Under the pieces are notes generated by a model that saw only the letters and a list, made by a program, of their open reading frames with translations, was not told the origin of the DNA and ran no database searches. A stretch of DNA of 21,982 nt, taken from positions 1 to 21,982 of the IMG/VR virus record IMGVR_UViG_3300043544_000062, one strand, 5' to 3'. Below are positions 872 through 7,464 of this stretch, piece by piece (the first letter of the stretch is position 1; every line of letters starts with the position of its first letter). A program made the position numbers and the translations under genes. The stretch comes from a virus.

Positions 872-1264
872 TCAAACCAAATACTTGTAATACTCGTATT
901 TTGCCTTTTCTTCCTCGGCATCTCTTTTTTTCCAATATACTCTAGGTAAAAAAATCTGTGCTCTATGGTCTTTGTCTTCTTCTTTAAAGTGAAAATACTG
1001 TCCGTGTTTTTTCATTTCTTCAGCCGTGGTCTCGTAAATGACATTTTCTTCTCTTTCCCAAACTTCAATCTTGTAATTGTTTGGTAAAAGAACTTCTTCA
1101 AAATACTGAGCATCTATTCCGATAGCATCTAAAACTCTCAAAATGTGTTTTGATGCGTGAATTGCTTTTTTAAACACCTTTCGTTCTGTATCTAAAAATC
1201 CTATAACCCGTTCTTCAGAAGTTCCTTCATTGATTCTAACTACAAACATTGTTTTACTTTTCAT
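872..1264 (-). CDS. Hypothetical phage protein, 130 aa
   Basis: No family recognised. The protein is charged and soluble, with a compact alpha/beta look: VIGFLDTERKVFKKAIHASKHI, then a strand-rich middle, and an acidic/basic C-terminus ending KYEYYKYLV. It has no signal peptide, membrane segment or cysteine motif. The start at 1264 overlaps the end of the winged-helix gene by 11 bases; ATG 1249 is an alternative five codons in. It sits in the same tight operon as the winged-helix, zinc-ribbon and sigma4-like genes. Confidence 0.75.
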   Translation of the reverse strand: MKSKTMFVVRINEGTSEERVIGFLDTERKVFKKAIHASKHILRVLDAIGIDAQYFEEVLLPNNYKIEVWEREENVIYETTAEEMKKHGQYFHFKEEDKDHRAQIFLPRVYWKKRDAEEEKAKYEYYKYLV

Positions 1265-1976
1265 AAATGGGTTTTACAACTATACGACCATCTGGTTTCT
1301 TAATCTCTTCAAATCTAATAATTTTAGGACCCTGTTTTTGTTCTTCAGCTACGACCTGGTCAATATACTTACAAATAGTTTCAAGAGTTATCTTTTTAAG
1401 ATAATCGGTATTTTTACATACCTGAATTGTTTTCTTAATCTGTTCATCGCTATAACCAATGAGGTTCCGGGCTGCTCTCAAGTTTCTTTTGATTATATGA
1501 TTAAACTGTTCTTTGTTTTCTGGTTTTAATCCCATTTCTTTCACAAATAAGGAGATAATATGCAAGTCCCTACGGGGCTTGCTTACTTTTAGTAAATTTT
1601 CTTTATATTCTTTTCTTTTATCTAAATCTGTTTTAGTAGCCTCCTTAAACTGTTTAATATCCTCCTTAACCAGTTTAAGTAGGTATACAACATTGGGCAA
1701 ATTTTGTTTCTGGCGATTTTCTATTTTGATTAAACCGTTTTCCTCTAGAATCTTATTATACTTTATCAAAGTTGGAATGCTTATTCCTAACTTAGATGCA
1801 ATAGTTTTTTGATTTGGATAACAATAACCTTTATCCCGAGCATACGAAGCATAAGCGTTATACAAAGCTAAACCAATAACCCCAATCTTAGATGCATATT
1901 CCTCGAAAACTACTCTATGAATCCAATACCAATCACTATTTCTTAAGTCTCTTACTTCAAATGATTCATTTTGCAT
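1254..1976 (-). CDS. Winged-helix (HTH_36-like) replication initiator or regulator, 240 aa
   Basis: The N-terminal residues 15-90 form a winged helix-turn-helix: IGLALYNAYASYARDKGYCYP, then QKTIASKLGISIPTLIKYNKILEENGLI. This is typical of phage replisome organisers and RepA/DnaD-type initiators with an HTH_36 domain. The C-terminal half (LKPENKEQFNHIIKRNLRAA, then a long helical stretch) may be a DnaD-like helicase-loading module, which is inference. I chose ATG 1976 over the in-frame ATG 1997 because it has the AAATACTATG context seen throughout the window and because 1997 lies within the T-rich tail of the leader terminator. It follows the SSB gene but has its own promoter and a structured leader, which suggests independent control, as expected for a replication initiator. 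Confidence 0.75.
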   Translation of the reverse strand: MQNESFEVRDLRNSDWYWIHRVVFEEYASKIGVIGLALYNAYASYARDKGYCYPNQKTIASKLGISIPTLIKYNKILEENGLIKIENRQKQNLPNVVYLLKLVKEDIKQFKEATKTDLDKRKEYKENLLKVSKPRRDLHIISLFVKEMGLKPENKEQFNHIIKRNLRAARNLIGYSDEQIKKTIQVCKNTDYLKKITLETICKYIDQVVAEEQKQGPKIIRFEEIKKPDGRIVVKPIYEK

Positions 1977-2002
1977 AGTATTTTTAGATTTTAACACAAA
2001 AC

Positions 2003-2066
2003 AAAAAGGATTGGGCGAGGGAGGTAAACTTGATAAATAAATTCTTGTTTACCATTCACCCAATCC
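2003..2066 (-). terminator. Intrinsic terminator in the leader of the winged-helix gene
   Basis: On the minus strand GGATTGGGTG (2066-2057) pairs with CGCCCAATCC (2017-2008, one G-U pair). Inside it GGTAAAC (2053-2047) pairs with GTTTACC (2029-2023). The 3' arm is followed directly by TTTTTGTTTTG. This terminator would stop transcription about 30 bases before ATG 1976. It shares its 3' half with the competing hairpin at 2017-2092. Confidence 0.6.
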
Positions 2067-2092
2067 TCTTTGCATTCAAGTTTACCTCCCTC
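2017..2092 (-). promoter_or_regulatory. 17-bp perfect inverted repeat: antiterminator or operator
   Basis: GAGGGAGGTAAACTTGA at 2092-2076 (minus) is exactly complementary to 2033-2017. As RNA it forms a 17-bp stem that uses sequence also needed by the terminator at 2003-2066, so the two structures compete. The 5' arm begins almost at the predicted transcription start and contains the SD (GGGAGG) of the tiny leader ORF. As DNA it could instead be an operator or replication site bound by the winged-helix protein. Confidence 0.6.
2049..2075 (-). CDS. Putative leader peptide MQRGLGEW
   Basis: An 8-codon ORF with AGGGAGG ending nine bases before its ATG. Its codons coincide with the 5' arm of the terminator hairpin, and the last sense codon is Trp. 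A ribosome here would block terminator folding, as in classical attenuation leaders. The ORF is very short and chance is possible. Support comes from the strong SD in a genome that mostly lacks them and from its exact position between the two competing arms. Confidence 0.35.
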   Translation of the reverse strand: MQRGLGEW

Positions 2093-2099
2093 TATCTTT

Positions 2100-2129
2100 A
2101 TTTTATTTTATACCAAAGACCTTTGTCAA
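2100..2129 (-). promoter_or_regulatory. Sigma70 promoter for the winged-helix gene
   Basis: Perfect -35 TTGACA (2129-2124), 18-base spacer, -10 TAAAAT (2105-2100, five of six). It lies just after the stop codon of the SSB gene. Transcription would start near 2093, so the RNA begins at the 17-bp inverted repeat. An earlier TAAAAT at 2110 would give a spacer of only 13. Confidence 0.6.
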
Positions 2130-2132
2130 GAG

Positions 2133-2705
2133 CTAAAACGGAATTTCTTCTTCTGGTTCCTCATCTTCAACAATCGGAATTTCTTCGCTAGATACTTTAG
2201 AACCCGAAGTAATTTTGGCTTTCATATTTTCAATAATCTGTTTTACTGGTTTGATTTTTTCCATTATCATTTCTTTCTCTTTGTCAGTTAAAGGAGTATT
2301 TTGTCTGGCGGGCAAAACAGAATAAATGGTATCTAATCCCCGTCCACTTCTTCTAATCGTAATATCATAATCGGGTATAGTATCAAAGGCATATTCTTCA
2401 CTTTTTGCCAATTCACCAATCTGTTGAAAAACCTTGTATCCAATTCTCAAAAGTTTAACTCTATTATCTGACCTATCGATAACCCAACCCAAAAACTGCA
2501 CCCTTGGAATTTCCCCTTTTTGACAGAAGGGGCATTTATCTTTTCCGATGCAAATCACTGATTTCCTTGTTTTTGTATCATAATGAACGCCGTAATCTTC
2601 AAATTCAGAAACAATTCTAATCTTATTATCTCCTTCTTTTAAGGACATCCAATCACTTTCCAATCCATATTTTTTACTTATAGATTTATAATCAGCAAAC
2701 TTCAT
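2133..2705 (-). CDS. gp32-like zinc ssDNA-binding protein with SSB-type acidic tail
   Basis: The N-terminus contains WMSLKEGDNKIRIVSEFEDYG, then His41, Cys52, Cys58 and Cys61 (CIGKDKCPFC). This H-x10-C-x5-C-x2-C arrangement recalls the zinc site of T4 gp32. The following strands (VQFLGWVIDRSDNRVKLL, and DYDITIRRSGRGLDTIYSVLP) fit an OB-fold core. The last residues, EDEEPEEEIPF, match the acidic tip ending in IPF of bacterial SSB, which recruits replication partners. It probably coats ssDNA during replication and recombination; the nuclease gene lies next upstream. The AAAAAGGTCG element lies 26 bases before the start, inside the end of the nuclease gene. I am fairly sure of ssDNA binding; the exact family is inference. 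Confidence 0.75.
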   Translation of the reverse strand: MKFADYKSISKKYGLESDWMSLKEGDNKIRIVSEFEDYGVHYDTKTRKSVICIGKDKCPFCQKGEIPRVQFLGWVIDRSDNRVKLLRIGYKVFQQIGELAKSEEYAFDTIPDYDITIRRSGRGLDTIYSVLPARQNTPLTDKEKEMIMEKIKPVKQIIENMKAKITSGSKVSSEEIPIVEDEEPEEEIPF

Positions 2706-3271: not shown

Positions 3272-3520
3272 TTATTCTTCTTTTACTTTTATATCGGGCT
3301 CCTCTTCTATTTTTTCCACTCTATTAAATGCTTCTTCGCTAAAATCCATTGCTAATTCAAATGCTTTTCTTGCCAGCGCCTCCAATTCTTCCAAAGCAAT
3401 ACCTTTTCCTTGATAAGCTTGTCCTATTAGATTACATAAACTTCCAAACGGCATCCACAACGCTTCTCTCAAAAACTTTTCATCCCATTGGGTTTTGGCT
3501 ATTATTTTATTGTTAGGCAT
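3272..3520 (-). CDS. Hypothetical protein, 82 aa
   Basis: No family recognised. The protein is mostly helical, with EALWMPFGSLCNLIGQAYQG and then a long amphipathic helix, ending in an acidic/basic tail. I prefer ATG 3520; the frame can start five codons earlier at a TTG (3535). An AAAAAGGTCG element lies at 3580-3589, farther upstream than usual (59 bases). The nuclease gene follows three bases after its stop, so the two are probably co-translated. Confidence 0.65.
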   Translation of the reverse strand: MPNNKIIAKTQWDEKFLREALWMPFGSLCNLIGQAYQGKGIALEELEALARKAFELAMDFSEEAFNRVEKIEEEPDIKVKEE

Positions 3521-3601
3521 GTTATTAACAATCAAGGTATAGGAACTTATATATTTTGATTTTTAGGTGTTTTCTCACCCGACCTTTTTAAGGTGCCAAT
3601 T

Positions 3602-3969: not shown

Positions 3970-4251
3970 TTAAAAATCTTCACCCTCTAACTCTCTCACT
4001 GCCCCATCAAACCAATCCAAAAAATGATAACTAATACTTTCAATTTCTGGGGCATTTCCCGAAGGCATTCTATCAACCCATACCTCAAAATAATCTTGCG
4101 GTCCACCCCAACTCAATTCAATCGTCCAAACCTCTTTTTTGGTAACTGCCAACAAATTTTCTCCTGTTAATTGTCCTTTTTTTATTTCTGCCAATCTATC
4201 TTTTAAATTTTCGTCAATTCTTTGCTCGCAAGTTAAATGTTTTGCTTCCAT
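3970..4251 (-). CDS. Conserved-looking phage protein of unknown function, 93 aa
   Basis: The middle reads WTIELSWGGPQDYFEVWVDR and then ISYHFLDWFDGAVREL. I recall this 'LSWGGP ... DWFDGA' pattern from uncharacterised phage and plasmid proteins; no function is known to me. AAAAAGGTCG lies 25 bases before the start, which has the AAAACTATG context. After the TAA the same frame continues for 13 sense codons (IVKNWIEEMGLIE) to TAG at 3928. That looks like a natural C-terminus, so the gene may carry a recent nonsense mutation or be read through. Confidence 0.75.
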   Translation of the reverse strand: MEAKHLTCEQRIDENLKDRLAEIKKGQLTGENLLAVTKKEVWTIELSWGGPQDYFEVWVDRMPSGNAPEIESISYHFLDWFDGAVRELEGEDF

Positions 4252-4284
4252 AGTTTTATTTTTTATTTATTTTTTTCGACCTTT

Positions 4285-4737: not shown

Positions 4738-5257
4738 GGTTTAGAGTATTTTTTAATTTTCGACCTTTTAAAAGTTTTTTGATTTTTTCAACCCTTATTA
4801 ACCCGTGCTTATTAAATAAATGACTTTCTAAATGTTGATATCTTATTCCACACACCGGACACCTTTTCCACTCTCTTTTTACTTTCTCGTTTATTTCTTG
4901 TATTCTTTCAATGGCATCCCTTAAAGCCAATAAAGTTTTCCTTTGGATTTTCGTTCTTTTTTCTCCCTTTTTAAAAGCGTATTTCTTCCAGTTCTTGAAA
5001 TTCTCTTTCCAGGTTTTCTGCCAATTGGCAATTTTTCTTTTTTTCTCTCTTACCTCTTCAGAAATTAAGCCCCATTTGTAAGGTAGTCCAAAAATTCCTT
5101 TATATTCCCGAGCTGTTAACCCGTGAGCGTGCCAAATATGGGAACCCAAATGTTCAAATCTTTTATGGCAAATTAAACACTCAACCTTTAAGTCATCTTT
5201 GCTCTTTTTCAAAATCTCTTTTGTAGCAATTTCAATTGTTTTTTTAGTGATTAACAT
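4697..5257 (-). CDS. MucR/Ros-like protein with two C2H2 zinc fingers
   Basis: The first finger is CLICHKRFEHLGSHIWHAHG (Cys27, Cys30, His40, His45). It is followed by LTAREYKGIFGLPY and SEEVREKKRKIA, which matches the Ros/MucR signature of a C2H2-like finger, 'HGLT..EY...GLP' and a trailing basic helix. A second finger, CPVCGIRYQHLESHLFNKHG (Cys133, Cys136, His146, His151), repeats the pattern after a basic linker. A double arrangement is unusual for this family. Likely a DNA-binding regulator. It lies far down the early operon and uses a variant leader element (AAAAGGGTGG, 24 bases upstream). Confidence 0.8.
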   Translation of the reverse strand: MLITKKTIEIATKEILKKSKDDLKVECLICHKRFEHLGSHIWHAHGLTAREYKGIFGLPYKWGLISEEVREKKRKIANWQKTWKENFKNWKKYAFKKGEKRTKIQRKTLLALRDAIERIQEINEKVKREWKRCPVCGIRYQHLESHLFNKHGLIRVEKIKKLLKGRKLKNTLNHVSRRNYSTQKRN

Positions 5258-5882: not shown

Positions 5883-5926
5883 ACTCTTTGATTTATTTTT
5901 CGACCTTTTATAGTTTTGCGTTATAT

Positions 5927-6181: not shown

Positions 6182-6223
6182 AGTTTTATTTATTTATTTT
6201 TTCGACCTTTTAAATTTAAGAAA

Positions 6224-7137: not shown

Positions 7138-7163
7138 TTTTTTGTTTTTTTACTTTATTTTTG

Positions 7164-7173
7164 CGACCTTTTT
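7164..7173 (-). promoter_or_regulatory. AAAAGGTCG leader element (example of a recurrent motif)
   Basis: AAAAAGGTCG lies just inside the predicted transcript of the 7192-7220 promoter, 26 bases before ATG 7137. Equivalent sites, with the bases between site and ATG in brackets: 2732 (26), 3854 (33), 4277 (25), 4558 (30), 4761 (23), 5282 variant (24), 5901 (18), 6203 (21), 6639 (22), 7033 (21), 8306 (24), 11232 (21), 17754 (37). It is too far from the ATG to be a normal SD. It sits in the 5' leader or between genes, so it is probably an RNA element acting in translation or processing. Confidence 0.6.
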
Positions 7174-7191
7174 ATACTCTATTACACTTTC

Positions 7192-7220
7192 ATTATAACC
7201 TCTATAAGCAAATTTGTCAA
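7192..7220 (-). promoter_or_regulatory. Perfect consensus sigma70 promoter of the early operon
   Basis: TTGACA (7220-7215), 17-base spacer, TATAAT (7197-7192): six of six at both boxes with optimal spacing. Transcription would start near 7185 and run left into the early genes. A palindrome directly upstream may bind a regulator. Confidence 0.8.
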
Positions 7221-7221
7221 G

Positions 7222-7255
7222 ATATTGACCAAATTCCCAGAATATGGTCTAATAT
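7222..7255. promoter_or_regulatory. Imperfect palindrome upstream of the early promoter
   Basis: Left arm ATATTGACCAAATTC (7222-7236) and the reverse complement of the right arm, ATATTAGACCATATTC (7255-7240), match except for one inserted base and one substitution. It abuts the -35 box, a usual place for an activator or repressor site. Confidence 0.5.
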
Positions 7256-7303
7256 ACAAATTTCAATTGAAAATCGAACAAAAAAAACAGTTCAAAACGG
7301 GGC

Positions 7304-7312
7304 TGTGGAAAA
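7304..7312 (-). promoter_or_regulatory. DnaA-box-like 9-mer (one mismatch)
   Basis: Minus strand TTTTCCACA, one base from the consensus TTATCCACA. It is part of a longer direct repeat with the second box: both copies read CTGTGGA, one base, then AACTTT. Confidence 0.5.
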
Positions 7313-7343
7313 CTTTTACATCAAAAAAGGTTCTTCAGGGGCC

Positions 7344-7352
7344 TGTGGATAA
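7344..7352 (-). promoter_or_regulatory. Perfect DnaA-box 9-mer
   Basis: Minus strand TTATCCACA, an exact match to the strong DnaA box, 40 bases from the first copy and in the same orientation. Confidence 0.55.
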
Positions 7353-7360
7353 CTTTAACA

Positions 7361-7415
7361 AATAAAAAAGCCCCCTAGCAAACTGCATCGGATTCGGGGG
7401 CGAAAACCACTAGGG
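7361..7415 (-). terminator. Intrinsic terminator of the lysis operon
   Basis: On the minus strand GCCCCC (7401-7396) pairs with GGGGGC (7375-7370), followed by TTTTTTATT. An alternative outer stem, CCCTAG with CTAGGG (7373-7378 and 7410-7415), is followed by TTTT on the plus strand, so the element may work in both directions. It lies about 50 bases past the lysozyme stop. Confidence 0.65.
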
Positions 7416-7464
7416 TTTTACTTTATAATTAAGACGAAAAAACTTGACAACTATTACAGAGAGT

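Follow-up and report, generated by a model that had tools for sequence, protein, structure and literature searches.

Transcription attenuators that are on by default and rely on a pre-emptor helix are known from the copy control of plasmid initiators. In the repC leader of pT181, a pre-emptor arm at the 5' end and a distal arm block an intrinsic terminator before the start codon (PMC5703833); our own method, applied to pT181 (L016), placed the pre-emptor helix at 4111-4124 with 4243-4256 (14 bp) and the competing terminator, with a T-run and before repC, at 4248-4258 with 4271-4281 (11 bp). The theta replicons pIP501 and pAMbeta1 (Inc18) carry a leader terminator before repR/repE and use transcriptional attenuation with the antisense RNAIII (PMC4981023). 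In satellite phage P4, the CI RNA comes from the sense strand, is complementary to segments of its own leader and, once released, provokes termination before the replication genes (PMC4825925). A translational variant is found in the pSK41 rep leader, where antisense RNA induces sequestration of the ribosome-binding site (RBS) (PMC5703833). Our search of open-access papers returned nothing directly on such attenuators before phage initiators.

The window analyzed here is the whole of IMG/VR virus record IMGVR_UViG_3300043544_000062 (21,982 bases, 34% GC), in which every annotated-size gene lies on the minus strand, as do the promoter and leader elements described next. At 1254..1976 it encodes a winged-helix, DnaD-like replication initiator (rep; Pfam HTH_36 at 1e-8; PHROG replication initiation / DnaD-like helicase loader), and the upstream neighbor, at 2133..2705, is a gp32-like phage single-strand DNA-binding protein (SSB; PHROG 1192, 5e-15). 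The 156-base gap between the two holds a promoter and a leader of ~95 nt. The sigma70-type promoter TTGACA-18-TAAAAT claimed in an earlier note on this DNA was borne out at 2129..2100 (11/12 matches), with the -10 element ending 7 nt before the first arm. This arm, A (GAGGGAGGTAAACTTGA, 2076..2092), stands at the predicted 5' end of the transcript and would be the 5' arm of the pre-emptor, or antiterminator. It is followed by B (GCAAAGAGGATTGGGTGA, 2056..2073), the 5' terminator arm; by A2 (GGTAAAC, 2047..2053), a degenerate copy of A that supplies the 5' arm of the inner terminator stem; by A' (TCAAGTTTACCTCCCTC, 2017..2033), the partner of A (17 bp) or, in part, of A2; and by B' (2001..2018), the 3' terminator arm, flush against A'. 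A U-rich tract (TTTTTGTTTTGT, 1996..2007) overlaps B' and then extends past it.

With the arms in the order A-B-A'-B', A:A' comprises 17 perfect pairs and B:B' 17-18 pairs including G-U. Both the perfect 17-bp inverted repeat (2092-2076/2033-2017) and the inner stem (2053-2047/2029-2023) described in the earlier note were recovered. The terminator hairpin it had described is also present, with an outer helix that is longer than claimed (2073-2056 with 2018-2001, 17-18 bp). Its statement that the two folds are mutually exclusive holds, but a single shared 3' arm is not the main reason, since A' and B' are adjacent; the competition comes from the interleaving of the arms and from the additional pairing of A' with A2. 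Because A2 resembles A, two partners are open to A': A itself, matched perfectly, and A2, matched imperfectly within the terminator hairpin.

This arrangement departs clearly from chance. Folding of the leader gave z = -5.36, with 0 of 200 dinucleotide shuffles as stable, and a scan of both strands of the whole window for interleaved arms (A-B-A'-B', A' touching B') returned this site only, while the same descriptor gave 0 matches in 30 shuffled windows. Scored by the energy of the weaker helix of the pair, the window leader reached 32.2 kcal vs. a maximum of 12.4 in 100 shuffles. This score and that of a related contig, L005 (30.7), were unequalled in the ~0.5 Mb of strand scanned, in which the next-best score (23.8) came from a GC-rich phage. 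Six of the seven rep-upstream regions (window plus relatives) exceeded all 100 of their own shuffles, the relatives L005, L007, L008 and L034 among them.

The relatives appear to keep the plan while changing the letters. Related SSB proteins were found in five virus contigs, the closest (SSB 71%) being L005 (IMGVR_UViG_3300009503_000163), whose SSB-rep gap contains the promoter CTCTTGACT-17-TAAAAT, then A (GAGGATAACACAATTTGGA), B (AGATTAAAAAGCACAGGGT), A2 (ACAATCT), A' (TTCCAGATTGTGTTATCCTC) and B' (GCCCTGTGCTTTTTAATTT), followed by the rep ATG. No similarity to the window leader is left beyond TAAAATAAAATAA of the promoter, and the arm partners stand in identical order. A blind scan of all loci yielded a third case, L007 (IMGVR_UViG_3300033233_000094), in which the arms (628-693) and a TTTTTG tail lie directly before an HTH gene; A2, seen in L005, is absent from L007. 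A search with the L007 HTH protein led to four further rep-type genes (L008, L033, L034, and L035). The L008 leader consists of A (CTCACGACTAA), B (AAAGCGGGGT), A' (TTGGTCGTGGG) and B' (GCCCCGCTTT) plus TTTTTG, and that of L034 of A (AACATTCAC), B (TCTCTCACCTATG), A' (GTGAATGTT) and B' (CATAGGTGGGAGG) plus TTTTT. Promoters of the sigma70 type were located closely before A in L005 (TTGACT-17-TAAAAT), L007 (TTGATT-17-TATAAT) and L008 (TTGAAA-17-TAAAAT). Comparison of these sequences argues strongly that L005, L007 and L008 share one promoter-A-B-A'-B'-U-tract-rep plan in unrelated sequence, and more weakly that L034 does, with an HTH gene of the rep type immediately downstream in each; taken alone, L034 could be a chance match (score 14.1 vs. 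a shuffle maximum of 13.3). The arms of L033 (3934-3999) are interleaved alike, but its B' (GGAGATTAAT) is the RBS plus start codon. Because scores >13.5 recur about every 10 kb of strand among the relatives and control sequences, L033 and L034 are supporting, not decisive. The L035 leader is doubtful, as its arms overlap the terminator stem and it failed the strict test, and it was left out of the count. Before rep in L006, a promoter-like sequence is present and the leader fold is absent.

Controls comprised twelve cultured phage or plasmid loci (L018-L029), of which eleven surround HTH rep-type genes and the last surrounds the match to the SSB in Geobacillus phage GBK1. A relaxed scan found no such leader before any rep gene in these loci, where many rep genes directly abut the preceding gene. 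A U-tract match in L037 was rejected, being located between convergent AT-rich sequences and not before a rep gene. An exact search of IMG/VR for the arms gave a single chance match, in the coding region of an unrelated phage. Queries with the full Rep found no relative among viral and genome contigs, the Rep C-terminal domain had no match among genome contigs, and a distant DNA search of cultured phages gave no match. The leaders of the relatives share no common sequence beyond the promoter. That several uncultured tailed phages conserve this topology, and not the sequence, ahead of their initiators suggests rationing of the initiator by RNA folding in phages too. Sequence-profile searches such as Rfam are blind to switches of this kind, hence the value of a motif-free descriptor, interleaved arms in which A' adjoins B', applied upstream of rep genes.

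Growing-chain minimum-energy folds were computed for the five terminator-type leaders (window, L005, L007, L008, and L034). Once A' was made, the mean pair probability of A:A' was 0.94-0.99 (0.45 in L007), and in 5/5 leaders B:B' became the optimum only once B' was complete to within 1-4 nt, at the U-tract. At full length, the terminator fold of the window leader has -36 to -39 kcal vs. -32.5 kcal for the A:A' fold, a difference of 4-6 kcal in favor of the terminator; the two folds of L005 have -34.2 vs. -34.4 kcal. A true pseudoknot, with both helices present together, was rejected as the main reading given an A'-B' linker of ~0 nt vs. helices of 10-20 bp.

From the sequence comparisons and these modeled folds we conclude that the leader is probably a default-ON, pre-emptor-type transcription attenuator of phage rep. 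Judging by the promoter, the transcript would start at or just before A. A is computed to pair with A' ahead of B' synthesis, leaving B in a closed loop, so that the B:B' terminator would be hard to form and RNA polymerase would read into rep. With B inside the A:A' loop and B' just outside it, switching would need A:A' to be undone. If A were masked, A' would be free, B (with A2) would pair with B' (with A'), and transcription would stop at the U-tract before rep, a likely use being to hold back initiator production while genome copy number increases. Since the terminator fold of the window leader is slightly more stable, fast refolding or slow elongation could make termination its default. 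The earlier note had already read the region as an attenuator, with exclusive folds, one terminator and a replication-type gene; relatives that keep the topology with unrelated sequences support that reading strongly.

Compared with the described systems, the present leaders would, by analogy, work like pT181/pIP501 attenuators; we do not claim membership, as the initiators are non-homologous (the window Rep to both RepC and RepR/RepE) and no counter-transcript is evident. The window has in common with these plasmids an initiator gene directly downstream and, in the predicted folds, a pre-empted terminator near the start codon. Like the window, pT181 sets a pre-emptor helix against a terminator directly before the initiator gene. 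However, the pre-emptor partner of pT181 doubles as the 5' arm of the terminator, whereas the window has separate B and B' arms interleaved with A and A'. Control in pT181 is by an 87-nt counter-transcript, RNAI, with none evident in the window, and RepC is a rolling-circle initiator, while that of the window is HTH_36/DnaD-like. In pIP501 and pAMbeta1, the leader before the initiator gene likewise contains a terminator, but this leader is 329 nt long and is accompanied by a counter-transcript and the CopR repressor, none of which was seen in the window. The complementarity of A' to A and A2 of its own leader recalls P4 CI; P4 differs in its lysogeny and in its stable, processed RNA that confers immunity in trans, and scans of the P4 leader region did not show the interleaved U-tract architecture. 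L033 resembles pSK41 in ending on the RBS/start codon and not on a U-tract, although pSK41 uses antisense RNA and none was identified in L033. The last arm of L033 (GGAGATTAATG) coincides with the RBS and start codon of rep, apparently a translational version.

As to what masks A, the chance that it is complementary RNA falls only a little short of even. The arms have no conserved sequence and yet are mutually complementary, which suits RNA-RNA recognition. One candidate, to which we give a modest minority chance, is inhibition in trans by the terminated leader itself: in the manner of P4 CI RNA, its A' would capture the A of the next nascent transcript and cause that transcript to terminate. 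In the OFF fold, the mean unpaired probability of A' is 0.38-0.86, and the computed duplex between A' of a terminated leader and A of the next transcript has -13 to -32 kcal. If true, copy number would be sensed without a separate antisense gene, and each phage would have its own recognition sequence, explaining free divergence of the arms under a constant plan. Trans-acting arms would also set superinfection or incompatibility specificity.

A classical pT181/pIP501-type mechanism, in which termination is triggered by a distinct antisense RNA, transcribed from the opposite strand, that covers A, has a similarly modest chance. The gene type and the default-ON pre-emptor logic are those of pT181/pIP501, and free sequence with kept pairing is typical of such RNAs. 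However, within the leader plus 150 nt of rep, the best opposite-strand promoter is at background (8/12 in the window); none rose above background in the window, L007, L008, L034 or L035, and that of L033 was mildly notable (10/12, with 10% of stretches as good). The leader of only ~95 nt, vs. 329 nt in pIP501, also speaks against it.

Translation could provide the control instead, with a ribosome on a leader ORF near A masking A or shielding the terminator, which we regard as unlikely. An ATG occurs near A in 6/7 leaders, although in DNA this rich in AT chance would be likely to supply one. ORFs span A' and B' in L005 (47 codons), L008 (32) and the window (2055 on, 23), and end 7-10 nt upstream of the rep ATG; this layout would permit coupling, so that coupled translation is possible in these three. 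Across the relatives, however, the start positions of leader ORFs range from 21 nt upstream of A to 37 nt inward, their lengths are 1-47 codons, and their stops lie upstream of B, within A2, within A' or downstream of B'. The effects of a ribosome would thus be opposite in different members, and ORFs that differ in start, end and position in each relative indicate that translation is not a common mechanism. A search for trp-type leader-peptide features found no conserved ORF, regulatory codon run or use of a Shine-Dalgarno sequence (SD). The 8-codon ORF to which the earlier note had assigned a role (MQRGLGEW, 2049..2075) does exist, but is probably not regulatory: leader ORFs are not conserved and these phages lack SDs. 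The AGGGAGG proposed as its SD is doubtful, since none is seen at any of the phage gene starts listed for the window; the typical context is aaactATG, and L005 is likewise without SDs.

The leader might instead be an unregulated, leaky terminator, in which the balance of the folds and the speed of RNA polymerase fix a low ratio of rep mRNA. The near-equal energies of the two folds (as in L005) and a switch that comes only when B' is nearly complete are consistent with this. But a plain weak terminator would suffice for such a purpose, and the additional long, exact A:A' complement suggests a control input; we consider the leaky terminator quite unlikely.

The initiators themselves bear on a further explanation. 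All seven downstream proteins are of the HTH/replication type by Pfam, PHROG or homology, the assignment of L007 being weak and resting on C-terminal homology to the L008 initiator. Between the Rep proteins of the window and L005, 79% identity is confined to the C-terminal ~104 residues; BLASTP found no relationship between the N-terminal HTH parts, which match different phage groups. From these comparisons, exchange seems to have moved the leader and the N-terminal domain as one unit. Swapped N-terminal HTH domains on the conserved C-terminal domain thus characterize the initiators at 1254-1976 of the window and 6770-7531 of L005, and the L007 and L008 initiators show a similar pattern of N-terminal exchange.

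This joint difference of leader and DNA-binding domain, beside C-terminal domains of 79% identity, resembles an initiator and origin swapped as one cassette, as would be expected if the inverted repeat were a DNA-level element to which Rep binds, as operator or as part of a replication origin. An operator had been offered as an alternative in the earlier note, and it now looks improbable. L007, L033, L034 and L035 have homologous N-terminal domains (38-49% identity) and unrelated arms, which disfavors binding of Rep to the arms. Further, the A-A' spacing ranges from ~27 to ~76 nt, the core words of A are not repeated outside the leader, and a DNA site has no need of B, B', a U-tract or a switch point within 1-4 nt. 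Least probable is a metabolite- or protein-binding riboswitch with an aptamer, the ligand option of the earlier note: the two-state expression platform would fit, but no Rfam riboswitch or leader family, T-box included, matched at gathering score (only weak miRNA-type hairpin matches were returned), and no loop or sequence is conserved between the relatives, making a shared aptamer unlikely.

Several minor observations were made alongside the leader analysis. An AAGGTC motif (often AAAAGGTCG) usually sits immediately past a stop codon, with the next ATG following at ~20-40 nt, e.g., on the minus strand of the window at 3506-3601, 4252-4284, 5883-5926 and 6182-6223. There are 23 copies on the coding strand vs. 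1 on the opposite strand, and ~8/kb between genes vs. 0.5/kb within them. It is also abundant in L005 (3832, 4388, 4644, 7520, and 7993) and L006. In a phage that lacks SDs, such a motif could signal translation or RNA processing. At the window end (1-523) lies gene 1-417, a minus-strand gene truncated there, whose 48% GC and strong SD (AAGGAGGTGA) set it apart from every other gene of this 34% GC, SD-less phage. By eye its product resembles a signal peptide plus a trypsin-like GSGVI/TNAHV pattern, Pfam gave a weak unrelated match only, and the gene is possibly host-derived or marks a prophage boundary. In L008, a 16-bp intergenic hairpin at 5065-5118, which is not a rep leader, immediately precedes an ORF with homology to window 3272-3535. 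A long intergenic stretch of the window (7138-7464) contains a very good promoter (TTGACA-17-TATAAT at 7220), several G+C-rich hairpin-like stretches and two DnaA-box-like repeats (TTTTCCACAG/TTATCCACAG), making it a possible origin or control region.
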